From contig CAJTDD010000003.1 of NCBI GenBank assembly GCA_910574885.1, forward strand, positions 248,001 through 312,000: DNA of 64,000 nt, given 5' to 3'. The position numbers were made by a program, and so were the translations under genes. The notes beneath the pieces were generated by a model. That model was not told the DNA's origin. It made no database searches and saw only the letters and a list, made by a program, of their open reading frames with translations. The stretch is from Lachnospiraceae bacterium (GTDB lineage Bacteria; Bacillota; Clostridia; Lachnospirales; Lachnospiraceae). Positions 1-64,000 of this stretch are shown here, in pieces. Within the stretch, counting starts at the first letter, position 1, and each line of letters starts with the position of its first letter.

Positions 1-3000
1 TTTCGGGCAAACGCAGGCACAGAAGTTACGAGTGATATCCTTATTTTACAGAAACGTGATCGTGTAATGGATATCCTGCCGGAATGGGTAAATCTTGATA
101 CCGATGTAAATGGAATCACTATAAACAGCTATTTTGTCCGGCATCCAGAGATGGTGCTTGGCGAGATGAAGATGGAAAGCACAAGGTTTGGCATGGACTC
201 CACCTGCAAAGCAAGGCAGGAAATACCGTTGTCTAAGCTGCTGTCTGAAGCTATGCAGCGGATAAACGGCGAAATCCCAGAATACGATTATGAGATTGAT
301 GAAATCTCCGACGAGCAGGATGCGGAAATCCCCGCCGACCCGAACGTGCGGAACTTCTCATTTACCCTTGTGGACGGAAAGCTCTACTTCCGAGAAAACA
401 ACAAAATGACCCCTGCAAAAGCATCCGTTACCGCAGAGAACCGCATGAAAGGGCTTGTGGAAATTCGTGACTGCGTGAGAAAGCTCATCCAGTACCAGAC
501 CGACGATTACCCAGAGAAAATGATACAGACCGAGCAGAAAAATCTCAACCGTCTTTATGACGGGTTCACAAAAAAATACGGCTTAATCAACAGCAGGGGA
601 AACTACCTTGCTTTTGCGGCAGACGAAAGCTACTTCCTCTTATGCTCTCTGGAAGTGCTTGACGACGAGGGGAAATTCAAGAAAAAGGCGGATATGTTCT
701 CAAAAAGGACGATAAAGCCTCATCGTGAAGTGACCTTTGTAGAAACGGCGAGCGAAGCCCTTGCCCTTTCTATCGGGGAGAAAGCCCTTGTCGATTTGGA
801 ATATATGGAGCGTCTCACAGGCAGGACGCAGGAGGAAATCATAAGGGAATTGCAGGGGGTTATCTATAAAGTGCCGTTATCCGAGCCTGCAAGATATGTG
901 ACCGCAGACGAATATCTGTCGGGAAATGTGCGTGAAAAACTGAAAACCGCAGGGATAGCGGCAAAGGCAGACCCAGAGCTTGGCATAAACGTGGCGGCTC
1001 TGGAAAAGGTCATCCCCAAGGATTTGCCCGCAAGTGAAATATCCGTCCGTTTAGGCACGACATGGATACCGCAGGAGGATATACAGAAATTTGTGGTGGA
1101 GCTTCTGACGCCGTCAAGCTATGCGGCGGGAAAGATCAGGGTACACTACACGCCCTATAACGGCGGCTGGTTCATTGAGAATAAGAATGCCGACGCAGGG
1201 AACGTCAAGGCGGACAGCACCTACGGCACAAAGCGGGCAAGCGCCTATCGTATGATAGAGGACACATTAAATTTAAGGGACACCCGAATCTTTGACTATG
1301 TTTATGACGAGCATAATAATAAAAAACCAGTGCTGAACCATAAGGAAACCACAGCGGCGCAGGCAAAGCAGGAGGTGATAAAACAGGCGTTTCAGGACTG
1401 GATCTGGAAAGACCCAGAGCGGAGGAACCGCCTTGTACGCTACTACAACGACACATTTAACAGCGTAAGACCCCGCGAGTATGACGGAAGCCATATCACA
1501 TTTGGCGGTATTAGCCCAGAGATTCAATTAAGACCGCATCAGGTCAATGCGATTGCCCATATCCTTTACGGCGGCAACACGCTTCTTGCCCACAAAGTGG
1601 GAGCGGGCAAGACCTTTGAGATGGTAGCCGCCGCACAGGAAAGTAAACGGCTGGGGTTATGCCAGAAATCCATGTTTGTCGTGCCGAACCACCTTGTCGG
1701 TCAGTGGGCGTCGGAGTATTTAAGGCTCTATCCGAGTGCAAATATTCTTGTGACCACCAAGCGGGATTTTGAAACGGGAAACCGCAAGAAGTTTTGCGGC
1801 AGGATTGCGACAGGGGATTATGATGCGGTGATTATCGGTCACAGCCAGTTCGAGCGAATCCCTATGAGCCAGGAACACCAGAGGGAACAGCTCATGCGTC
1901 AGCTTGACGATATTGAGCGTGGCATCGACGACGTGCGGGCATCCAAAGGGGAACAGTTTACGGTTAAGCAGCTCATGAAAACAAGGAAAGCAATTAAGGC
2001 GAAGCTCGACAAGCTCAACGATACCAAACGAAAAGACAGCGTGATTACCTTTGAGGAATTGGGCGTAGACAGGCTTTTTATAGATGAGAGTCATTTTTAC
2101 AAAAATCTTTACCTATTTACAAAGATGCGAAACGTCGGCGGCATCGCCCAGACCGAAGCACAGAAAAGCTCTGACCTCTTTATGAAATGCCGCTATTTGG
2201 ACAAAATTACGGGCAACCGCGGCGTGATTTTTGCGACGGGAACACCCATCTCAAACTCGATGGTCGAGATGTATTCTGTACAGAGGTATTTGCAGTACGA
2301 CACCCTTGTGAGGAAAGGACTACAGCATTTTGACAGTTGGGCGTCCACATTTGGCGAAACAGTTACGGCTCTGGAACTCGCCCCAGAGGGTACAAATTAC
2401 CGAGCCAAGACAAGGTTTGCAAAGTTCTATAATCTGCCAGAGTTAATGCAGATGTTCCGAGAGGTGGCGGACATCCAGACCGCCGATATGTTAAAGTTGC
2501 CTGTGCCAAAAGTAAATTACTATAATGTCAAGACGAAGCCGAGCCGGATACAGACGGAAATGGTGGCGGGGCTTGCAAAACGGGCAGAAAAAATTCGTGC
2601 GAAACTGGTAAAGCCAGAGACAGACAATATGCTCAAAGTGACAAACGACGGGCGGCAGCTTGCCCTCGACCAGAGAGTGATTGACCCAATTCTGCCAGAC
2701 GACCCGAACAGCAAAGTCAACGTCTGTGTGGACAATGTGTACCGTATCTGGGAGGGACACGCCGACACAAAAGCAACCCAAATCGTCTTTTGTGATTTAT
2801 CGACACCAACAAAAAGAAAGATAATAGAAACGCAGGAGGTTAGTGAAAATGTCTTTCAGATGATACCCGACCACTTTGAGAATGTTTATGATGATATGAG
2901 GAAGAAGCTCGTCGCCCGCGGTATCCCTGCGGAGCAGGTGCGTTTCATACACGAAGCGACCACAGACGTACAGAAAAAAGAGCTGTTTGCAAAGGTGAGG

Positions 3001-4056
3001 AGCGGTGAAGTTCGTGTGCTGTTCGGCTCTACCCAGAAAATGGGCGCAGGGACGAACGTACAAGACAGGCTCATTGCTATCCATAATCTCGACTGCCCCT
3101 GGAAACCGTCATGTTTGGAACAGCGGCAGGGGAGGATTGAGCGGCAGGGCAATATGTTCCCAGAGGTGGAAGTTTACCGCTATGTGACAGAGCAAACCTT
3201 TGACTCATACCTCTACCAGCTAGTGGAGGGAAAACAGAAATTCATCTCCCAGATCATGACGAGCAAAAGCCCTGTGCGTTCCGCCGAGGACGTGGACGAG
3301 GTTGCCCTTTCTTTCGCTGAGGTGAAAATGCTTGCCACAGGCGACGAACGTTTTAAAGAAAAAATGGATTTGGATATGCAGGTATCGAAGCTGAAAGTAT
3401 TGAAGCAGAGCTACCTTTCCGAGCATTACGACCTTGAGGACAGGATATTGAAGGACTATCCGCAGGCGATTAAAGACTATGAGGAACGTATCACAGCCTA
3501 TGGGAATGATACAGGGATTGCCAGCCGGAATAAGCCCCAGGGAGAAGAAAAGTTCTGCCCGATGACCATAAGGGGCGTAACCTATAAGGAAAAAGCAGAC
3601 GCAGGGGAAATGCTTATTGCTGTCTGCAAGGATAATCCGCTGTCAAAGCCAATGGAAATCGGCAGCTATCGCGGCTTCAAGATGGAGGTTTTTTATGATC
3701 CCATCAATACCCATTACTGCCTAAACCTTTGTGGAATGTGGAAACACATGGTTGATTTAGGATCGGACACTCTCGGCAATCTGACCCGAATTGAGAATGA
3801 GATTGCTAAACTCCCTGCAAAGCTGGAAGCCGCCAAGACCAGAAAGGAAGAAACTGTGGCGCAGCTTGAAACTGCAAAGATTGAGGTGGAAAAGCCCTTT
3901 GCCTTTGAGGACGAGCTGAAAGAAAAGACGGAACGGCTGAACGAACTCAATATAGAACTGAATCTGAATGAGAAAGAAAATGCCGTCATTGACGATGAGC
4001 CAGAGCAGAATAACGATGAACCGACCGAAAGAAAAAATACGGGCAGGGAGCGGTAA
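1..4056 (+). CDS. Giant methylase/SNF2-type helicase, C-terminal part
   Basis: The frame is open from base 1, so the gene begins outside the window; the first ATG at 67 is internal. About 1351 codons are present. The start of the visible part matches residues downstream of the methylase domain of the second copy at 58402 (NAGTEVTSDIL in both), which shows what is missing. A helicase follows: Walker A GAGKT near residue 534, DESH near 695, and motif VI QRQGRIERQG near 1041, the SNF2/DEAD-like order. The C-terminus is a charged coiled coil. Such proteins are hallmark genes of Tn1549-like ICEs and are thought to act on transferred or incoming DNA; the exact reaction is unknown. Confidence 0.9.
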   Translation, partial: FRANAGTEVTSDILILQKRDRVMDILPEWVNLDTDVNGITINSYFVRHPEMVLGEMKMESTRFGMDSTCKARQEIPLSKLLSEAMQRINGEIPEYDYEIDEISDEQDAEIPADPNVRNFSFTLVDGKLYFRENNKMTPAKASVTAENRMKGLVEIRDCVRKLIQYQTDDYPEKMIQTEQKNLNRLYDGFTKKYGLINSRGNYLAFAADESYFLLCSLEVLDDEGKFKKKADMFSKRTIKPHREVTFVETASEALALSIGEKALVDLEYMERLTGRTQEEIIRELQGVIYKVPLSEPARYVTADEYLSGNVREKLKTAGIAAKADPELGINVAALEKVIPKDLPASEISVRLGTTWIPQEDIQKFVVELLTPSSYAAGKIRVHYTPYNGGWFIENKNADAGNVKADSTYGTKRASAYRMIEDTLNLRDTRIFDYVYDEHNNKKPVLNHKETTAAQAKQEVIKQAFQDWIWKDPERRNRLVRYYNDTFNSVRPREYDGSHITFGGISPEIQLRPHQVNAIAHILYGGNTLLAHKVGAGKTFEMVAAAQESKRLGLCQKSMFVVPNHLVGQWASEYLRLYPSANILVTTKRDFETGNRKKFCGRIATGDYDAVIIGHSQFERIPMSQEHQREQLMRQLDDIERGIDDVRASKGEQFTVKQLMKTRKAIKAKLDKLNDTKRKDSVITFEELGVDRLFIDESHFYKNLYLFTKMRNVGGIAQTEAQKSSDLFMKCRYLDKITGNRGVIFATGTPISNSMVEMYSVQRYLQYDTLVRKGLQHFDSWASTFGETVTALELAPEGTNYRAKTRFAKFYNLPELMQMFREVADIQTADMLKLPVPKVNYYNVKTKPSRIQTEMVAGLAKRAEKIRAKLVKPETDNMLKVTNDGRQLALDQRVIDPILPDDPNSKVNVCVDNVYRIWEGHADTKATQIVFCDLSTPTKRKIIETQEVSENVFQMIPDHFENVYDDMRKKLVARGIPAEQVRFIHEATTDVQKKELFAKVRSGEVRVLFGSTQKMGAGTNVQDRLIAIHNLDCPWKPSCLEQRQGRIERQGNMFPEVEVYRYVTEQTFDSYLYQLVEGKQKFISQIMTSKSPVRSAEDVDEVALSFAEVKMLATGDERFKEKMDLDMQVSKLKVLKQSYLSEHYDLEDRILKDYPQAIKDYEERITAYGNDTGIASRNKPQGEEKFCPMTIRGVTYKEKADAGEMLIAVCKDNPLSKPMEIGSYRGFKMEVFYDPINTHYCLNLCGMWKHMVDLGSDTLGNLTRIENEIAKLPAKLEAAKTRKEETVAQLETAKIEVEKPFAFEDELKEKTERLNELNIELNLNEKENAVIDDEPEQNNDEPTERKNTGRER

Positions 4057-39654: not shown

Positions 39655-40131
39655 ATGCAGGAGGAAGTGACACAGAAAACCATTGCCCTTGTGTTTAAAT
39701 CTTCCCGGCTGACTGCCGACGTGCTGAAAAAGGCTATGAAGATGTATCTGGAACACCGGAAACAGGGAAAGCAGATGCCGCATGGGAAAATATCAGTGAA
39801 AGAGCTGGTCGGTCAGGGTATGGGCGCTTCGAGCATTGAGGTGACGGATAACAACATCAAGTCCTTTGAGAGAGTGGCAAAGAAGTATAACGTGCAGTTC
39901 GCTGTGAAGAAGGATAAGACGGAAAAGCCGCCGAAGCACATCGTATTATTCAAGGGCAAAGATGCCGACGTAATAACGCAGGCATTTAAGGAGTTTGTAA
40001 AAGTTAATGAGAAAAAGCATAACCGCATCTCCGTAAAGGAGAAGCTGGCGCAGTTCCGGGAGCAGTTAGGAAAAGACAAAAACCGGGAGAGGGCAAGGGA
40101 ACACCAGAAGGACAGGGGGCAGTCATTATGA
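39655..40131 (+). CDS. PcfB family protein (DUF3801)
   Basis: 158 residues. Core KISVKELVGQGMGASSIEVTDNNIKSFERVAKKYNVQFAV matches the element 1 PcfB and DUF3801. Thought to bridge relaxase and VirD4. SD aaggagg. The stop overlaps the VirD4 start by 4 bases (ATGA). Confidence 0.82.
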   Translation: MQEEVTQKTIALVFKSSRLTADVLKKAMKMYLEHRKQGKQMPHGKISVKELVGQGMGASSIEVTDNNIKSFERVAKKYNVQFAVKKDKTEKPPKHIVLFKGKDADVITQAFKEFVKVNEKKHNRISVKEKLAQFREQLGKDKNRERAREHQKDRGQSL

Positions 40132-41205
40132 GTAAAATCGTAGAGGGCATTGCCAAAGACCTAAAGTCAATCCCTGAAAAGCTCAAGGCAAAGACGGGGA
40201 ATGTTGACAAAAAGAAACTTTTCCTTATGAACCTCCCCTATGCGCTTGCCGGGTATTTCTGCGACAAAATTGCGTGGCTGTGGCGGGTATCGCCGGGGCA
40301 GGATGCTTCCGCAAAGGCGATGGCGGTCATGGCGGGGATGGAGGACTTATTTTCCAACCCGTTACCAAGTTTCCACCCAAAAGATTTGCTGATAGGGATA
40401 GGGTGTGGCATTGCGCTCCGCCTTATAGTGTATTTCAAAGCCAAGAACGCCAAGAAGTTCCGGCATGGCATGGAGTACGGTTCTGCAAGGTGGGGGACAG
40501 CGAAAGACATTGAGCCTTATGTCGATCCGGTATTTGAGAACAACGTGTTACTCACAGAAACGGAAAGGCTGATGATGTCCGGCAGACCAAAACAGCCGAA
40601 GTATGCGAGGAATAAAAATATCCTTGTTATCGGCGGTTCTGGTTCGGGCAAGACGAGGTTTTTCGTAAAACCGAACCTGATGCAGATGCACTCATCGTAT
40701 GTTGTCACTGATCCGAAGGGGACAGTGTTAGTGGAGTGCGGAAAAATGCTCTTAAAGAACAATTACCGGGTGAAAGTGCTGAATACCATTAACTTTAAAA
40801 AGTCCATGAACTATAACCCTCTCGTTTATATCCGGAGCGAGAAGGACATTTTGAAACTCGTAAACACAATCATTTTAAACACCAAAGGGGAGGGGCAGCA
40901 ATCCGGCGAAGATTTTTGGGTGAAAGCCGAAAAGCTCTATTACACCGCACTGATCGGGTACATCTGGTATGAGTGCGTGGAGGAAGAACAGAATTTCACT
41001 ACTCTGCTTGACATGATAAATGCCAGCGAAGCAAGGGAGGATGACGAGGAATTTAAAAATCCCGTTGATTTGATGTTCGATGAGCTGGAGGAAAGAGAGC
41101 CGGAGCATTTTGCAGTAAAGCAGTATAAAAAATACAAACTGGCGGCGGGCAAGACAGCGAAAAGCATCTTAATTAGCTGCGGCGCACGTTTAGCCCCCTT
41201 TGACA
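40128..41205 (+). CDS. VirD4 coupling protein, exon 1
   Basis: First 359 codons of VirD4. Two membrane segments (about 24-45, 81-100) and Walker A GGSGSGKTRFF near 167 are in this part. The exon ends GAC A at 41205, where a group II intron begins with GTGCAG. Unspliced, the frame stops at 41231, giving a protein without Walker B. Joined with 43995-44758 it encodes 613 residues with GAC ATC AAG GAG at the joint. Confidence 0.9.
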
Positions 41206-43994
41206 GTGCAGCGACACGTTGTCGCATATAAACTTTGCGTAGGATTTTCCTGCAAAGAGGTAAAAGTGACGGAAAGGCAACAGCCTTTCTAACTGATATT
41301 CCGAGAAGTGGAATGACGGGGTAACGCCCTGAAACGCTTCCCTTGATACTGCGTTGGAAGAAACGGGACGTATTTCCCACAACTGACACAGCACGCTGAA
41401 GTCGGCTGTCTGCACCTGCGACTGTCCCTTTTGGGGATAAAGCAAAACCGAGCCAGAGGTGGCCGGGGGTGTTAGGCCGGAGGTCTATAAAGTACCTATG
41501 TCCAGAATGCGGCTGACTACCGCTGACAAAAGCCCGAATGTACAGGTCTATAACGGGATATGGTAGAAATGCCATAGCCGTGAAAACGGCGTATGTGGGG
41601 GAAAGTAAGATTTGTCGATATGAAATTCCCTATGGTGTTACAGGCATCATCAAGCATACAGGCCTAAAGGGCAGGGTTAAGGGTATTATGCACAGATAGG
41701 AATATCGGAACGTGGAAAGCCCCGGATGTGGAGTGGATACGCACGATGAAGCACTGAACGGGAAAATCGTGTCGCCCTTATGGGAGGTGCGGTATAACCG
41801 TTCTTAATCCGGGAGGAAAGAGCAGCCATGCTACCTGTGAAGCCGTGAACAAAGTAAGCGGTGGAGGGACGGGCTGTAGTCAGGAACAGAAATAAAATCA
41901 TAATCAATAAACACGCATAGGTTCGAGTAGGACTAAGAAAGGCGAAAATCCAAACGAAAGTGAGGACAAGTAACCGACTATGGCAACAGGAAAGGCACAA
42001 AAGAAAGATAAGTTAAGGCACGCCGAGTATTATGACTTTCAGGAAATTCAAGATAAGCTGTACGCCGACAGCAGTAAGGGTAAAGTTTTCAAACATCTGG
42101 TTGAAATCATTGCATTGCCCGAAAATATACGGCTGGCATACCGCAACATCAAGAAAAACCATGGGAGCATGACACCCGGCACAGATGGAAAAACAATTAC
42201 AGAATTAGCAACACTCTCTGATGAACAGCTAATTTCTTCCGTACAGCACAAGTTAGACTGGTACGTTCCGCAAAGTGTCCGGCGGGTAGAGATTCCGAAA
42301 GGAAATGACCCAACAAAGAAACGCCCGCTTGGAATACCGACAATTATGGACAGGCTGATACAACAGTGCGTATTGCAGGTCATGGAGCCGATATGTGAGG
42401 CTAAATTCCACGACCATAGCTATGGATTCCGCCCTAACAGGAACCAACAGCACGCAATCGCTCAGGTTCATAAGGATATGCAGAGAAGCAATCTCCACTA
42501 TGTCGTAGATATAGACATCAAGGGGTTCTTCGACAACGTGAACCACGGAAAACTGCTGAAACAGCTCTGGACAATGGGAATCCATGACAAAAAGCTGCTC
42601 TGTATCCTATCCGCTATGTTAAAAGCGGAGGTGGCCGGGATTGGATTCCCGGAAGTCGGGACGCCGCAGGGCGGTATTATCTCGCCCCTGCTCTCCAATG
42701 TAGTTCTGAATGAATTAGATTGGTGGCTTGCGAGTCAATGGGAAGAAATACCGACAGAGTTCCCGTATAAGGAAACAGTCAATCCGAATGGAAGCGTGAG
42801 TAAAAGCCATAAGTTTTCCGCACTGCGGAGGACAAAACTGAAAGAAGTTACCTGCGTCCGATATGCTGATGATTTTAAGATATTTACAAACAGCTATCAA
42901 AATGCAGTGAAGCTATTCCACGCAACCAAAAGCTGGCTCCATAAAAGGCTCGCTCTTGAAATCAGCCCTGAAAAATCGAAGGTGATTAACCTGAAAGAGC
43001 AGTATTCAGAGTTTCTCGGTTTCAAGCTAAAGGTTATCCCCCGTGGGAAACGGAGCGACGGACGCACCAAATATGTAGTGGAGAGCCATATCAGAGAGAA
43101 ATCTATCGCGAAAATAAAACCAAACTTAAAACGGCTGATTTACGACATTGAGTTCCCGTCACAAGGCAAGCGTACTGAATATCAGGCGATTTGCCGCTAC
43201 AACGTTTATGTAATGGGAATCCATGACTACTATCAATTAGCCACAAAGGTCTGCGACGACCTTACGCCATTCGCCTTATCTGTCCACAAGAGCCTGCGGG
43301 CAAGACTGAAAGAACGGGTTAAAACTGCAAAACAGGTCAGGAAAAGGAAACTTCCGTGTGAAGTCCCAAAAGTTATCAGGGAACGGTATGGGAAGAGCAA
43401 ACAGCTCCGATATGTAGCCGGACACGCAGTTGTCCCGGTAGGTTACATACGGCACAAGCCCCCAAAGTCCATGAACCGCAAAATCAATTCTTATACGCCC
43501 GAGGGCAGAGCCGAAATCCATAAGAATCTGGACAGAATCGATATGACGGTTCTTCATTACCTGATGAGGAACCCGGTTCTATACCGTACTATCGAATACA
43601 ACGATAACAGGCTTTCACTATATTCGGCCCAAATGGGAAAATGTGCCGTATCTGGCAAAGTGCTTTCTATTGGCGATATTCATTGCCATCACAAAGTGCC
43701 ACGGTATTTAGGCGGCAAGGACAACTATCAAAATCTGGTGTTGGTATGTGAAGATGTACATCATCTGATTCATGCCACAAACCCTGATATTATCAGAAAG
43801 TATATGGAAATCCTAGGCCTTGACCAAAAGCAGAAAGAAAAACTCAATAAGTTAAGAAGCCTTGTCCACGTTGAGAGTTATTGAGATGAAATAAAATCTG
43901 TTCCTGATGGCAAGCCGGGTGAGCTGAAAGGTTCACGCCCGGTTTAGGGCGGGGGAAAATCCGGAGATAACATCAAAGGATTACCTATCGCTAT
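41206..43994 (+). mobile_element. Group II intron with HNH maturase, inserted in VirD4
   Basis: 2789 bases. It starts GTGCAG (consensus GTGYG, fifth base differs) and ends in AT (consensus AY). Domain V is recognisable at 43913-43945: AGC, a G-C stem and GAAA tetraloop (GAGCTGAAAGGTTCACGC). The 5' 770 bases (domains I-III, 41206-41979) are noncoding ribozyme and contain no gene; domain IV holds the maturase. Splicing restores the VirD4 frame exactly. The sense orientation in the host gene fits a self-splicing retroelement. Confidence 0.93.
41980..43884 (+). CDS. ltrA: Group II intron maturase/reverse transcriptase with HNH domain
   Basis: 634 residues. Reverse transcriptase with RT-0/1 (PKGNDPTKKRPLGIPT), the DIKGFFDNVNH block, PQGGIISPLLSN and YADD near 294. 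Maturase (X) domain at about 370-480. C-terminal HNH endonuclease with CAVSG, CHHKVPRYLGG near 568 and LVLVCEDVHHLIH. Complete by length and motifs, so both splicing and retrohoming look possible. It lies in the intron's domain IV. Confidence 0.95.
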   Translation: MATGKAQKKDKLRHAEYYDFQEIQDKLYADSSKGKVFKHLVEIIALPENIRLAYRNIKKNHGSMTPGTDGKTITELATLSDEQLISSVQHKLDWYVPQSVRRVEIPKGNDPTKKRPLGIPTIMDRLIQQCVLQVMEPICEAKFHDHSYGFRPNRNQQHAIAQVHKDMQRSNLHYVVDIDIKGFFDNVNHGKLLKQLWTMGIHDKKLLCILSAMLKAEVAGIGFPEVGTPQGGIISPLLSNVVLNELDWWLASQWEEIPTEFPYKETVNPNGSVSKSHKFSALRRTKLKEVTCVRYADDFKIFTNSYQNAVKLFHATKSWLHKRLALEISPEKSKVINLKEQYSEFLGFKLKVIPRGKRSDGRTKYVVESHIREKSIAKIKPNLKRLIYDIEFPSQGKRTEYQAICRYNVYVMGIHDYYQLATKVCDDLTPFALSVHKSLRARLKERVKTAKQVRKRKLPCEVPKVIRERYGKSKQLRYVAGHAVVPVGYIRHKPPKSMNRKINSYTPEGRAEIHKNLDRIDMTVLHYLMRNPVLYRTIEYNDNRLSLYSAQMGKCAVSGKVLSIGDIHCHHKVPRYLGGKDNYQNLVLVCEDVHHLIHATNPDIIRKYMEILGLDQKQKEKLNKLRSLVHVESY

Positions 43995-58401: not shown

Positions 58402-61400
58402 ATGAGAAAATATGACTTAATTTCCATACTCTCCGAAGAAACTTCAAGGAGGGTGACGAGAAATGAAGAAAGCTGGAAGAAATATTTGAACACAGCATCA
58501 AGGCTCTACAAATACCCGTTCAAAGACCAGCTCCTTATCTATGCCCAAAGACCGGACGCCACAGCCTGCGCTTCCATAGAGATATGGAATGAAAAAATGC
58601 ACTGTTGGGTAAACAAGGGCGCAAAGGGGATTGCACTTCTTGACGAAGAAGGGAGTCCCTACACCGGACTGAGGTACGTTTTTGACATATCGGACGTGCA
58701 TAAGGCAAGGCGCATCGGGCGTTTCCCTCAGCTTTGGGAGATGCGGGAGGAACATCAGGAAGCGGTTCTGAACCGTCTGGAAGGGATTTACGGGGATACT
58801 GACAAAGAAGCCGGGTTTACGGACAGGATCAGGGAGATTGCTTCCCGGATTGCACAGGACTGTTATGGGGAGCTTGCTTCGGATATGGAATATCTGAAAG
58901 AGGGAAGTTTTCTGGAGGAACTGGACGAACTGAATATTGCTGTTCGTGTCCGGGAAACACTGGCGGACAGCATCGCCTACACCGTCTTAAAGCGGTGCGG
59001 CATGGAAGATGCGGAGCTGGCAGAGGAAATCCAGTTCCCCTATATCCATGAGTTTAATACAATAGAAACCCTGTCACATATCGGTGACAGCATATCCGAT
59101 TTATCCAAGCCTGTGCTTATGGAGATTGGCAAAGCAATCGGGGTGTATGACAGGGAAATCGCCGGAAAGGAAGCAGCGAGAAATTTTGCCCAAAAAGGAC
59201 TTGCAAATACCTCTGACACACGCTATAATGCTTTAAAGCGTGAAAGCGAAATGGAGGACGTACAACCTACCACACAGACCGGAAATGCCGGGGAAAGGGG
59301 AAATAATGATGAATCTGACCTACGAGAAGAACGGGGATTACATGATACCGATGTTACAGGTGGACGAGCAGCCGGAGGGGACGCTCACGAAATACGGGCT
59401 GATGAGGAAGAATTACTTACAGGAACACAAGAAGGGGATTTACACCGGGCTTCTGCTGAAAGGAAAGCTGAAAGAGCATCTTCTGACCATTCAGGAGCAG
59501 GCGGAGCAGAGGATGGAACTGCTGACCGGGCAGATGATGAAGCAGGAGGGAGTGACGGAAAAACTCAAAGCAGAGAACCAGATGCTCTGGGTTCAGAAGA
59601 TGAACAACATCAGGCACTCGGCGGAGGAAATCGTGCTGAGGGAACTGGTATACAGCCTGTAAATGAGGAAGAAATAACTGAAAATAAGGAATTGACAGAG
59701 CCGGGTAATGGAGAAAGCGCATTATCCGGTTTTTCTTTGTCTGGCGAGGAAATCATTAACAGGCATTGGGCAGAGATTGAAAAGGGGATTTTGCAGTTTG
59801 ATGAATTTATGATGCATAAATGCCCGGATATTGCCGGGGTAATGCTTTTTGAGCCGGATAAGGATAAACAGACGGAATACATCAAAAACAGTTACCGGCA
59901 TGGGGAAAACACAGAGTTTTATGTGGGGAAAGAAAGAGCCGGATACAGGGCGGACGAAAGCGGTATGACGCTTTGGAACGGAACATATGCACATCGGAAA
60001 GCAGAAGCAGTTATTACATGGGAAGCTGTGAGGGACAGTATCGCCTTTTACATGGAAAAGGGCGAATATCTGAAAGAAGGGCAGATTCCGCAGTGGGAAG
60101 AACCGAAGGAAACGGAAGTTTACCAGCAGCTTAGTTTATTCCCCACCATAGAGGAACAGATCGGCACGATAGAAGCGGCGCAGGCAGGAGAGAAATATAT
60201 CATGCCCGCCGCTTTTTCTCTGCCAAAGGAGCAGCTTGAAGCCATTTTACGCACAGGGGGCGGACGGGATAACAGCAGGAGCCGCATTTATGCCAAGTAC
60301 CAGCAGGGCAAAACGCCGGAGGAAATGGCGGAGTTTCTGAAAAATGAGTACCGAACTACGGGGAAAGGCTTTGATTTTGGCAGCAATCCCATTTCCGTCT
60401 GGTTCAATGAATCCGGCATGAGCGTCGGCTACGGGATGTCCGCAAAGGAAAACCCGGTTGCGGTGATGGGATGGCAGGAAATAGAGGGCGTTGTCCGTTC
60501 TATGGTGGAGAATGGCTCTTACATGGGCGCAAATGAAGTGTTCCTTGTGGATGCGGTGGAACGTCAGAGGGTGTCAAATGACCTGTTCAATTTCTTTTGG
60601 GACGGTATCGGGGAAGCGCCGGAGAGCATACCGATTAAAAGCCACAACCACCCGGAGAGCATGACAATCCTGTGCGAGCTTTTATCCACACAGGAGGGGC
60701 GCGATGTCATCGCCGGGGAGCTTTCCCACGCAAAAGAGCAGATTGAAGCCGGGGAAAAGCAGATCAGGTGGCGGTATGTGAAAAAGCCGGAGCATCTGCT
60801 TTCAGAGATTGCGGATTTAAGTACAGAGAAAACGGAATACCCGGTACAGGACAGCATGGAGGTGCTGCATGAGGATTTTATTACACAGGATGAGATAGAT
60901 GAGCGTCTGACAGGCGGCAGCAACTATCATCATGGGCAGTTCCGTATCTATGAGTATTTTATGGAAGGGCATGATAAGAAAGAAAATATTGCTTTCCTTA
61001 AAAATGAATACGGGACGGGCGGCGGCGCTCCCGCCTTAATCGGTTCAGACCGGAGCGATGAATGGCACGATTCCAAAGGAATCAAACTGGGGAAAGGCAG
61101 GATAGGCGATCCATACGCAAAAGTGCTTTTAAAATGGAACGTGGTGGAGAAGCGCATCAGGGAGCTTGTCAATGCGGATAAATACCTTACGCCGAAGGGC
61201 AAGGAAGCCTTTGCACAGTACAAAAAAGAGCAGGCGGAGGAAGCCATGCGCCGGGAGCAGGAAAAGCTGGAGCATGGTGTCCGGGTAGAATGTAAAGATG
61301 CCATAGAAAAAGCGATTGCGGAGAAATTTGACGGTTACACCCTTCCGGGGGATGCCGCAGAGGGCGTTATCCGGCAGTATGGGAAGGAACGTGTGGAAAT

Positions 61401-64000
61401 CGTCCTTGCAAACACAATCATGCACTTATCCCATGACGGGCGGTTTTCCCCCGACAATAAGGAGTGGGCAAAAAGCCTTGTCCCTTCCGCTGACTGGCAG
61501 ACCAGGGATTACCTCGTCACGTCCCACCCGGCTGTGCTGGACGGTTTTACAAACCAGACAAGGCGGTACATAGAGCGTGACAGGGAGCCGGAAAAAATTG
61601 CTGTACCGGAACAGGAAGCGGAAATTTCCGGGGAAAAATCCCAAAGTCCCGAACCGGAAAATAAAGCCAGCGACAATGAAAAAGCGCTGATGGAAAGGCT
61701 TGCGGAGATGTCCGCTGTGGTAAAAATCTGCGGTGCGCTTTCTATGAAAGATGTGGTCGGCTGGAACGAGGATACCGGGGCGGTTGCCATTGAGGATGAC
61801 AGCAGGAGGTTAGAGGGCAAGGCGGTCTATGATGCTCTGTTTTTAGAAGCCACTGATTATGTCCTGATGCAGTCATTAAGCGGCAATACGGAAAAAGCGG
61901 TGGAAATGGATGCTCTGCTGAAGGAGGCTCAGAAGTATGCGGCACGTTATGAGAGCGAGCAGGAACAGCAGAGGGAAAGACACGCTGCGGAAGTTTCTGA
62001 AGCAGAGCTGTCAGAAGAAAAGAAGGAAGAACCTCTCCCGGATGCCGAGCCGGAAAACCTTACAGAAGAACCAGAACAGGAAGAAACAACACGTTTTACG
62101 GTTACGGAAACTTCGGATGCCTTTACAGAGCCTTATGCGGTATGGGACAGCGAAGCACAGGATTATTATATAACTGGCGATGGCACAGTGCCGACGTTTG
62201 GCACAGCGGAGGAAGCGGATGTTTTCTGCCAAAATCTCAACGGAGATTTACAGGGGAAAGAAGCAGAAAATATGGTTACAGAGCCGGGAACTGTTTCAGA
62301 ATCAAAAGATACTGCTGAAAAAGATGATTTCCCCGACATTGACACACAGGCTATCCGGGAAGGTCTGGAAAAAGCGGGCATTGTGGACGGGCAGGTTGTA
62401 GACGAAAATGCTTTGGAAAACAGCCCGTTTATCCAGCAGGTCATGGGGGATGTGGAAACTCTGACCGGGGGCAATCCGCCAGAACCGGGGAAGGCATCAG
62501 GAAAACAGTCGGAGATTGATAAATCAAATGCAGTGAATTACCATATCTCTTTCAACGAAGCAGAGAATACCGGGAAAGGATTTGCGCCGAAAGAGAAGTT
62601 CCGGCAGAACGTGGAAGCCATACGAACCCTTGAAAAGATTGAAAGTGAACGCCGCACTGCCACACCGGAAGAACAGGAAGTTTTAGCAAAATATGTGGGT
62701 TGGGGCGGTCTTGCAGATGCCTTTGATTCTTCCAAAGCGAACTGGGCGAATGAGTATCAGGAGTTAAAGAGCCTGTTATCCCCGGAGGAATACGCTTCTG
62801 CAAGGGAAAGCACCTTAAATGCCCATTATACAAGCCCGGTCATCATTCAGGCAATCTATGACGCAGTGGGGAAAATGGGGTTTGCCAGAGGGAATGTGTT
62901 AGATCCCGCCGCAGGCATCGGGAATTTCTATGGCTGTCTGCCGGAGGAAATGAAGGGAAGCAGGCTCTACGGGGCGGAGCTTGACGGGATTACCGGGCGC
63001 ATCGCAAAACAGCTCTACCCTCATGCGGACATTCAAATCACTGGCTTTGAAAACACCACCTATCCCAATGACTTTTTTGACGTGGCGGTAGGAAATGTGC
63101 CTTTCGGACAATATAAAGTGTCTGACAGGCAGTATGACAAGCACAATTTTTTGATACACGATTATTTTTTCGCAAAGACTTTGGATAAAGTGCGTCCGGG
63201 CGGCATTGTTGCCTTTGTCACTTCAAAGGGAACGATGGATAAGAAAAACCCGGAGGTGCGGAAATACCTTGCACAGCGGGCGGAGCTTTTAGGGGCAGTC
63301 CGGCTCCCGAACACAGCCTTTAAGGAAAATGCGGGTACGGAGGTCACTTCGGACATTCTGTTCTTAAAGAAGCGTGACCGGGTGTTAGACATTGAGCCTG
63401 ACTGGGTGCATCTGACGGAAAAAGACGGTATCGTGATGAACCAGTATTTCGCAGACCACCCGGAAATGGTGCTTGGAAAAATGGAGATGGTTACAGGGGC
63501 GCATGGCATGGAGAGCGCCTGTCTGCCGGATGATTCCCTTCCCCTGTCGGCACAGCTTAACCATGCGCTTTCCCATGTGGAGGGCAGCATCGAGCAGGCG
63601 GATTTTAACGAGATTGAAGATGAACTGGCAAGGGAGAACATACCCGCCGATCCGGACGTGAAGAATTACAGCTATACCGTAGTGGACGATAAAGTGTATT
63701 ACCGGGAAAATTCCATTATGAAGCCTGTGGACGTGTCGGAGAAAGCGGAGCAGCGCATGAAGGGCATGGTGGCAATCCGGGACTGTACGCAGGAACTGAT
63801 AAACTTCCAGTTGGAAGAATACCCGGATGAAATGATTAAAAATAAACAGACGGAGTTGAATCAATTATACGATGATTTCTCCAAAAAATTCGGTCTTATC
63901 AGTTCACAGACCAATAAAAGGGCGTTCAATCAGGATTCCAGCTACTGCCTGTTATGTTCCCTTGAAAATCTGGACGATGAGGGGAAGTTTATTGGCAAGG
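58402..64000 (+). CDS. Giant methylase/helicase, 5' part
   Basis: The frame is open from ATG 58402 (SD ggagg, 58391-58395) to the window end: 1866 codons visible. The N-terminus resembles ArdC/LPD domains (YAQRPDATACASIEIWNE). A low-complexity acidic linker at about 303-420 overlaps tnpV in another frame. Later comes an N6-adenine methylase domain with DPAAGIGNF near 1501 and NVPFG near 1565. The helicase part, as in the gene at 1-4056, must follow outside the window. ICE backbone; probably processes or protects DNA. Note also DUF-like repeats near 620-860. Confidence 0.9.
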   Translation, partial: MRKYDLISILSEETSRRVTRNEESWKKYLNTASRLYKYPFKDQLLIYAQRPDATACASIEIWNEKMHCWVNKGAKGIALLDEEGSPYTGLRYVFDISDVHKARRIGRFPQLWEMREEHQEAVLNRLEGIYGDTDKEAGFTDRIREIASRIAQDCYGELASDMEYLKEGSFLEELDELNIAVRVRETLADSIAYTVLKRCGMEDAELAEEIQFPYIHEFNTIETLSHIGDSISDLSKPVLMEIGKAIGVYDREIAGKEAARNFAQKGLANTSDTRYNALKRESEMEDVQPTTQTGNAGERGNNDESDLREERGLHDTDVTGGRAAGGDAHEIRADEEELLTGTQEGDLHRASAERKAERASSDHSGAGGAEDGTADRADDEAGGSDGKTQSREPDALGSEDEQHQALGGGNRAEGTGIQPVNEEEITENKELTEPGNGESALSGFSLSGEEIINRHWAEIEKGILQFDEFMMHKCPDIAGVMLFEPDKDKQTEYIKNSYRHGENTEFYVGKERAGYRADESGMTLWNGTYAHRKAEAVITWEAVRDSIAFYMEKGEYLKEGQIPQWEEPKETEVYQQLSLFPTIEEQIGTIEAAQAGEKYIMPAAFSLPKEQLEAILRTGGGRDNSRSRIYAKYQQGKTPEEMAEFLKNEYRTTGKGFDFGSNPISVWFNESGMSVGYGMSAKENPVAVMGWQEIEGVVRSMVENGSYMGANEVFLVDAVERQRVSNDLFNFFWDGIGEAPESIPIKSHNHPESMTILCELLSTQEGRDVIAGELSHAKEQIEAGEKQIRWRYVKKPEHLLSEIADLSTEKTEYPVQDSMEVLHEDFITQDEIDERLTGGSNYHHGQFRIYEYFMEGHDKKENIAFLKNEYGTGGGAPALIGSDRSDEWHDSKGIKLGKGRIGDPYAKVLLKWNVVEKRIRELVNADKYLTPKGKEAFAQYKKEQAEEAMRREQEKLEHGVRVECKDAIEKAIAEKFDGYTLPGDAAEGVIRQYGKERVEIVLANTIMHLSHDGRFSPDNKEWAKSLVPSADWQTRDYLVTSHPAVLDGFTNQTRRYIERDREPEKIAVPEQEAEISGEKSQSPEPENKASDNEKALMERLAEMSAVVKICGALSMKDVVGWNEDTGAVAIEDDSRRLEGKAVYDALFLEATDYVLMQSLSGNTEKAVEMDALLKEAQKYAARYESEQEQQRERHAAEVSEAELSEEKKEEPLPDAEPENLTEEPEQEETTRFTVTETSDAFTEPYAVWDSEAQDYYITGDGTVPTFGTAEEADVFCQNLNGDLQGKEAENMVTEPGTVSESKDTAEKDDFPDIDTQAIREGLEKAGIVDGQVVDENALENSPFIQQVMGDVETLTGGNPPEPGKASGKQSEIDKSNAVNYHISFNEAENTGKGFAPKEKFRQNVEAIRTLEKIESERRTATPEEQEVLAKYVGWGGLADAFDSSKANWANEYQELKSLLSPEEYASARESTLNAHYTSPVIIQAIYDAVGKMGFARGNVLDPAAGIGNFYGCLPEEMKGSRLYGAELDGITGRIAKQLYPHADIQITGFENTTYPNDFFDVAVGNVPFGQYKVSDRQYDKHNFLIHDYFFAKTLDKVRPGGIVAFVTSKGTMDKKNPEVRKYLAQRAELLGAVRLPNTAFKENAGTEVTSDILFLKKRDRVLDIEPDWVHLTEKDGIVMNQYFADHPEMVLGKMEMVTGAHGMESACLPDDSLPLSAQLNHALSHVEGSIEQADFNEIEDELARENIPADPDVKNYSYTVVDDKVYYRENSIMKPVDVSEKAEQRMKGMVAIRDCTQELINFQLEEYPDEMIKNKQTELNQLYDDFSKKFGLISSQTNKRAFNQDSSYCLLCSLENLDDEGKFIGK
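59309..59662 (+). CDS. tnpV: TnpV-like protein, overlapping the giant gene in another frame
   Basis: 117 residues from ATG 59309 (ATG 59306 also possible), with SD GAAAGGGG eight bases upstream. LTYEKNGDYMIPMLQVDEQ, KYGLMRKNYLQEHK and MNNIRHSAEEIVLRELVYSL are the recognisable blocks of the TnpV family. It is read +1 relative to the giant gene, whose translation here is low-complexity and acidic (SDLREERGLHDTD and later). TnpV occurs in Clostridiales transposons; its role is unknown. Confidence 0.8.
   Translation: MNLTYEKNGDYMIPMLQVDEQPEGTLTKYGLMRKNYLQEHKKGIYTGLLLKGKLKEHLLTIQEQAEQRMELLTGQMMKQEGVTEKLKAENQMLWVQKMNNIRHSAEEIVLRELVYSL

Follow-up and report, generated by a model that had tools for sequence, protein, structure and literature searches.

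The window analysed here is a 64,000-nucleotide stretch of contig CAJTDD010000003.1 (positions 248,001 to 312,000, forward strand) from a Lachnospiraceae bacterium. It carries a conjugative element with a giant gene for a putative ArdC-like, methylase and helicase protein, and inside this host gene, in its +1 frame, lies a complete tnpV gene. Comparison with relatives indicated that the stretch is real and ancient and has two maintained frames. The substitution patterns show that the +1 frame encodes TnpV under purifying selection, and, by the same comparisons, the host frame is kept open and is otherwise nearly unconstrained. The explanation that we favour as a whole, with a probability of roughly 0.85, is that the two genes are an overlapping pair conserved since ancient times, for which translation in both frames is predicted, and that the free-standing tnpV genes have probably escaped from it.

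The nested tnpV gene and its host

The tnpV open reading frame (ORF) is complete and occupies positions 59306-59662 (+), which corresponds to 118 codons plus a stop. Its product matched the TnpV family (PF14198) with 145.8 bits, against a curated cut-off of 27, and an E-value of 5.8e-43, and the match spanned the whole profile (1-111 of 111). The host ORF begins at 58402 on the same strand and is still open at the window edge at 64000, with 1866 open codons; tnpV lies wholly within it in a different frame. It starts one base past a host codon start, and TnpV codon positions 1, 2 and 3 are host codon positions 2, 3 and 1. The ATG at 59306 and the adjacent alternative start ATG at 59309 (+) are both preceded by the Shine-Dalgarno (SD) site AAAGGGGA at 59294-59301 (+), with an anti-SD duplex energy of -8.1 for each. 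The host frame reads the tnpV stretch as residues 302-420, which are acidic, Gly-rich and of low complexity. Both the TnpV-like ORF with its own SD site and the acidic linker had been described in the initial annotation of the window, and these results bear them out.

A structure prediction for TnpV, made with 77 aligned sequences, consisted of a beta hairpin plus five helices, with a mean predicted local distance difference test score (pLDDT) of 90.9; a fold search with TnpV gave no confident relative. The host prediction, made with 60 aligned sequences, was folded at residues 1-268 and from about 475. Residues 285-449 (59254-59748, +), the predicted disordered linker that contains tnpV, had a pLDDT below 50, and the model had no secondary structure at 269-447. 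Of 81 relatives, 80 have an ATG near the start of the TnpV domain. A strong SD site is present in 69 of 80, compared with 16% of 4,179 other +1 ATGs (the test scored the best of the candidate ATGs, which introduces a small bias). Internal initiation of tnpV is favoured by these two features.

The host gene is predicted to encode an ArdC-like N-terminal domain, the linker, a DUF3849 domain (107.9 bits) and an Eco57I-like methylase (20.9 bits, under the cut-off of 25.3). ArdC of R388 ranked first and second in the fold search with the host N-terminus (E 0.028 and 0.034; probability 0.97 and 0.96), and the next row had an E-value of 0.71. The Pfam model ArdcN did not match the host copy of the window and matched one of seven relatives at an E-value of only 0.098; in the host of locus L160 (loci are cited by L numbers) it exceeded the cut-off. 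The helicase part of the host falls past the window edge. The C-terminal part of a second giant gene, that of element 1, is located at 1-4056 (+), and its SNF2-rel_dom (32.2 bits) and Helicase_C (30.2 bits) matches are over the cut-off. The initial annotation had pointed out that this copy is cut by the window edge; its tnpV, upstream of the window at G000:C3:244981-245313, proved to be nested identically.

Selection on the two frames and recurrence among relatives

The diversity at the host codon positions of 23 close relatives was.062/.040/.175 in the ArdC-like region and.172/.056/.043 in the overlap. The ratio of the third to the first position was 0.25 in the overlap and at least 1.25 in every 110-codon window clear of it (about 3,000 codons). 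The comparison of codon positions in both frames, which had been suggested earlier, revealed a pattern that is reversed in the overlap but in no other part of the giant gene.

The ratio of nonsynonymous to synonymous substitution rates (dN/dS) was determined with equally long sequences paired at 2-20% divergence; no sequence was used twice, and the differences were sorted by their effect in both frames. For 40 independent pairs, the dN/dS of TnpV was 0.251 (bootstrap 0.202-0.298). That of the host in the overlap was 1.19 (1.03-1.44) for TnpV-changing differences and 0.89 (0.62-1.39) for TnpV-silent ones. The control on the ArdC-like region, in which six of the 40 pairs dropped out, showed 0.92 (0.81-1.05) for the +1 frame and 0.185 (0.165-0.203) for the host in the other 34. 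The codon-position rates of TnpV were similar in nested (.084/.057/.174, 47 pairs) and free genes (.102/.069/.248, 14 pairs).

A host-frame stop was absent in 130 of 133 distinct full-length tnpV copies located behind a host N-terminal match in any state. The three others are L052, L251 and L031, of which L031 is part of an inserted element. Among tnpV copies elsewhere, the host-equivalent frame was stop-free in 1 of 75 (L271). When TnpV codons were redrawn from nested usage, the host frame was open in about 6% of draws, with a mean of 2.6 stops. An earlier count on copies classed as nested, with T at 0 of 826 stop-making versus 791 of 2,026 other positions (432 of 860 versus 1,331 of 2,242 in free-standing copies), was rejected as evidence of stop avoidance because it is circular, nested being defined by an open host frame; the comparison of 130/133 with 1/75 replaced it. 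The host residues are near what the TnpV codons dictate (acidic,.201 vs.183; disorder-promoting,.855 vs.821). Since the frame is kept open and its residues stay this close to the dictated ones, the host stretch looks like an open, disordered spacer, not a domain. Thus, selection is seen in both frames, as a TnpV dN/dS of 0.25 and as a lack of host stops, with host residues that are nearly neutral.

The source genome contains 25 PF14198 matches. Seven of them, including that of the window, are inside host ORFs (868 to 936 codons in the fetched stretches) in the same relative frame, and the remaining ones have no long overlapping frame. A blind scan of other genomes was performed with a profile of the host N-terminus alone (A1), no tnpV being used, and covered the best 80 of at least 535 relatives. 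A host N-terminus with 100% identity is encoded in the genome of Sporofaciens musculi, a culturable commensal. A full-length TnpV in an open host frame, at the same place and in the same frame, was found in 68 of the 80 loci, a few of which have hosts broken elsewhere (e.g., L059, L061 and L067). Six loci stop at a contig edge (L055, L056, L060, L065, L080 and L085), and six are broken: L031 by an insertion, L039 and L052 in the host frame with TnpV intact, and L058, L079 and L081. None of these 12 exceptions is an intact giant gene without a full TnpV. The initial annotation had asked for homologues without the segment and had named a TnpV frame broken at the rate of chance as the outcome that would speak against it; neither was seen in the scan. 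Its claim that one DNA stretch holds two maintained frames is upheld by the dN/dS values, the stop counts and these 68 loci, and its surprise was justified and even understated.

The nested matches across 275 loci, which overlap in part, were all at +1 (160 matches). The host N-terminus was present in 30 of 398 genomes of a phylum-wide draw; among the loci fetched from it, strong host matches have a +1 TnpV, and weak matches to short ArdC-like ORFs are mostly without it. Plasmid relatives from Bacilli and Clostridia (Cohnella, Virgibacillus, Listeria, Anaerococcus, Ruminococcus and others) have a +1 ORF at the same place. From a viral collection, 26 of 70 loci were inspected: 13 have a TnpV match, all at +1 and one behind a broken host frame, and the other 13 have short or cut-off host ORFs without TnpV. 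The nested TnpV of the L022 and L112 giant genes is only 25-26% identical to that of the window, in the same arrangement. L022 (G000:C8:27940-28278) comes from the same genome as the window; its giant gene is very divergent, its nested TnpV scored 64.7 bits, and in the rooted host tree it branches off before all other nested hosts.

History of tnpV and rival explanations

For the TnpV trees, ambiguous copies were dropped, as were rows more than 93% identical to a kept row (91-row tree) or more than 86% identical (143-row tree, 143 of 234 kept). The number of changes needed between the nested and the free state was 2 for 91 rows, 6 for 143 rows (about 46 in shuffles) and 5 for 96 rows. One clade (SH-like approximate likelihood ratio test, SH-aLRT, 84) within the nested diversity of the 143-row tree holds 53 of the 62 free genes and no nested gene. 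Outside this clade, L263, L170 and the trio L244/L249/L259 group with different nested genes, and L018, L219, L236 and L264 have no firm placement. A single clade of all free genes was rejected by the approximately unbiased (AU) test with p 4.4e-6, an optimistic value, as 13 rows were added after the larger tree had been seen and 8 long-branch rows were left out. When the host tree is rooted on seven short ArdC-like proteins, L022, L160 and a clade that consists of L111-L113, L125-L127, L150 and L151 lie near its base. Those near-basal hosts whose TnpV is included in the 143-row tree correspond to the seven rows that its midpoint root separates from the rest, and the root of the outgroup-rooted host tree falls among nested copies. 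From the TnpV trees and this host tree, it is likely that free tnpV escaped from the overlap, and more than once.

According to the mechanism that we propose, ribosomes starting at 58402 would read through the stretch in the host frame, and the resulting disordered tether would connect the ArdC-like domain to the domain that follows it in the giant protein. Other ribosomes would initiate internally on the same mRNA, at the SD site and ATG 59306/59309, and produce a separate folded TnpV. In this way, the production and the inheritance of TnpV would be coupled to those of the giant protein that handles DNA in the conjugative element, and the free-standing tnpV of mobilizable elements would descend from repeated escapes. 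We infer that TnpV may have a role in DNA transfer or establishment; our guess is that it would help there with the host protein. Among 20 scanned ORFs neighbouring free tnpV, chosen from those listed for 62 loci, 5 are Mob_Pre relaxases and the rest are mixed or unmatched. The relaxases lie 51-128 bases upstream of the free-standing TnpV match on the same strand (L018, L244, L190, L176 and L225). As a clue to the function of TnpV, these neighbours are suggestive only.

If the giant gene alone were real, the tnpV ORF would be a chance open frame or an artefact of the family model. Long alternative-frame open stretches are common in giant genes: in 22 of the 64 giant genes in hand with at least 1,500 codons, such a stretch elsewhere is longer than the tnpV ORF, and ORF length was rejected as evidence. 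The nested tnpV exceeds chance because of its family similarity, its conserved place and frame and its substitution pattern. A dN/dS of 0.25 for TnpV with a value near 1 for the host in the same bases, and the codon-position pattern shared with free tnpV, refute the chance frame, to which we leave hardly any probability. The initial annotation had also considered a captured tnpV cassette; for this particular gene, that would mean a recent uptake from a mobilizable element. Elements with free-standing tnpV do insert into the giant gene (L031, L019, L028 and L046). However, one place and frame are shared with hosts whose TnpV is only a quarter identical, with the phylum-wide draw and with plasmids, the distances of nested TnpV track those of the host (Mantel 0.646, 0 of 500 permutations, n 81), and the trees make free tnpV likely derived. 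This capture was rejected by the conserved place and frame, and we consider it very improbable. The manner of expression has a rival too, in which TnpV would be attached to the ArdC-like domain through +1 frameshifting instead of being initiated internally. Some relatives do have a TnpV frame that is open for tens of codons ahead of the ATG, but the position of the ATG and the frequency of strong SD sites given above render the fusion unlikely.

A capture in the distant past deserves more weight. Before the sampled giant genes had their common ancestor, a free tnpV lying between ArdC-like and methylase/helicase genes could have been joined to them by read-through in another frame, which would make the linker the younger of the two frames. 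The predicted fold of TnpV, the predicted disorder of the linker and its composition near that dictated by TnpV are as expected of a newcomer linker, and the seven short ArdC-like outgroup relatives have no recognised tnpV. Against this, a split ArdC / tnpV / methylase arrangement was not recognised in the fetched loci, and the sampled free-standing genes look derived. We regard such a capture as a real possibility, at somewhat less than even odds. To the opposite origin we would grant a similar, tentative standing: the whole TnpV family may have been born by overprinting on an unstructured linker of a conjugative-element ArdC-methylase-helicase gene, lived there across a phylum and been set free repeatedly to mobilizable transposons. 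If true, this would be a gene nursery inside another gene.

Several observations weigh against the conserved overlapping pair and the escape of tnpV from it. Taken alone, the length of the tnpV ORF is unremarkable. In a comparison of eight distant +1 ORFs with Pfam, 6 exceed the cut-off of 27, and those of Anaerococcus (24.8 bits) and S. agalactiae (16.2 bits) are under it; two long distant host relatives, L134 and L140, have no recognisable TnpV. The host dN/dS near or above 1 indicates that the linker sequence is under little or no constraint beyond openness. The trees were built from as few as 112-118 columns and have long branches, so that individual placements are uncertain. L236 and L264 are near the base of the 143-row tree and leave room for an early free form.

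Neighbouring features, annotation and known systems

The genes upstream in the conjugative element include RepA_N, coupling protein, TrbL/VirB6-like, TraG-like and M23/NlpC genes and an MT-A70 methylase. The coupling-protein gene (window 40128-43884) has a partial profile match and precedes a reverse-transcriptase/HNH gene, which gives the impression of an interruption by a group II intron. Insertions were also observed in giant genes. Those of L031 (L031:1196) and L019 are interrupted at the same point, equivalent to window 59341 and 12 codons into the nested tnpV, and the nearest gene of both inserts is a free-standing tnpV. L028:14218 and L046:15364 (= L026:15967) mark insertions that share a single site towards the end of the giant gene, with a free-standing tnpV by the junction. 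The inserted end carries TTTTGCGGACA, the 11-base repeat reported for elements inside S. suis snf2 (PMC9815147).

In 13 annotated stretches, TnpV is listed in three (L106, L107 and L346), the giant/ArdC gene in five (L110-L113 and L160), neither in five and both in none; the plasmid gene table describes itself as incomplete. The labels on near-identical Listeria DNA vary between ArdC-like, SNF2-related, methyltransferase and TnpV. Annotation therefore hides nested pairs, as one product or neither is listed in these stretches. To our knowledge, few nested same-strand genes of bacteria are well supported. The recurrence across Bacillota offers many natural copies for measuring how two frames share DNA, and the overlap would account for a predicted disordered linker in a gene used as a landing site by other mobile elements. 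The finding suggests that free genes can arise from an overlap, and it would shift TnpV from a transposase-like label to a candidate partner of a giant conjugation protein.

In the open-licence PubMed Central papers searched, no report of tnpV nested in an snf2/methylase gene was found; TnpV as a word is used for other things in many papers. An excision role was postulated for TnpV of Tn4451 from its likeness to lambda Xis (PMC3158075). The Tn4451-type TnpV (Tn6104 and others) belongs to the same Pfam family and is likened here by name and model, but its gene stands separately beside recombinase and mobilization genes, whereas the nested tnpV overlaps a host gene (PMC3158075). The host resembles the polyvalent proteins with DarB-like methylase-helicase dyads, which are likewise giant, combine methylase and SWI2/SNF2 parts and occur in conjugative elements and phages (PMC5512222); the words TnpV and overlap are absent from the main text of that paper. 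In streptococcal elements the giant gene is named snf2 (PMC5357655). The snf2 of Tn5252-superfamily elements is a large SNF2 gene carried by comparable elements and a known landing site for other elements (PMC5357655, PMC12942858). It is reported there as one gene; the corresponding position of the S. agalactiae copy L158 is occupied by a +1 ORF that resembles TnpV only weakly.

Nested genes as a kind are already known. In Bacillus subtilis, comS is nested in srfAB, and stops can be introduced into one without losing the other (PMC12915044). It has a competence function in the operon of one species, whereas tnpV is conserved across the mobile elements of a phylum, is located on a linker predicted to be disordered and is related to free-standing genes. 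Two proteins per bacterial locus were also claimed for antisense or overprinted genes of E. coli O157:H7 (PMC7103648, PMC5960689, PMC4683798). The antisense genes among them are based on RNA and ribosome data in one species, while tnpV lies on the same strand as its host and is supported by selection across many species. As far as the literature searched shows, what is new is how widely the overlap occurs, that it is located on a linker predicted to be disordered, and that its product has apparently escaped.
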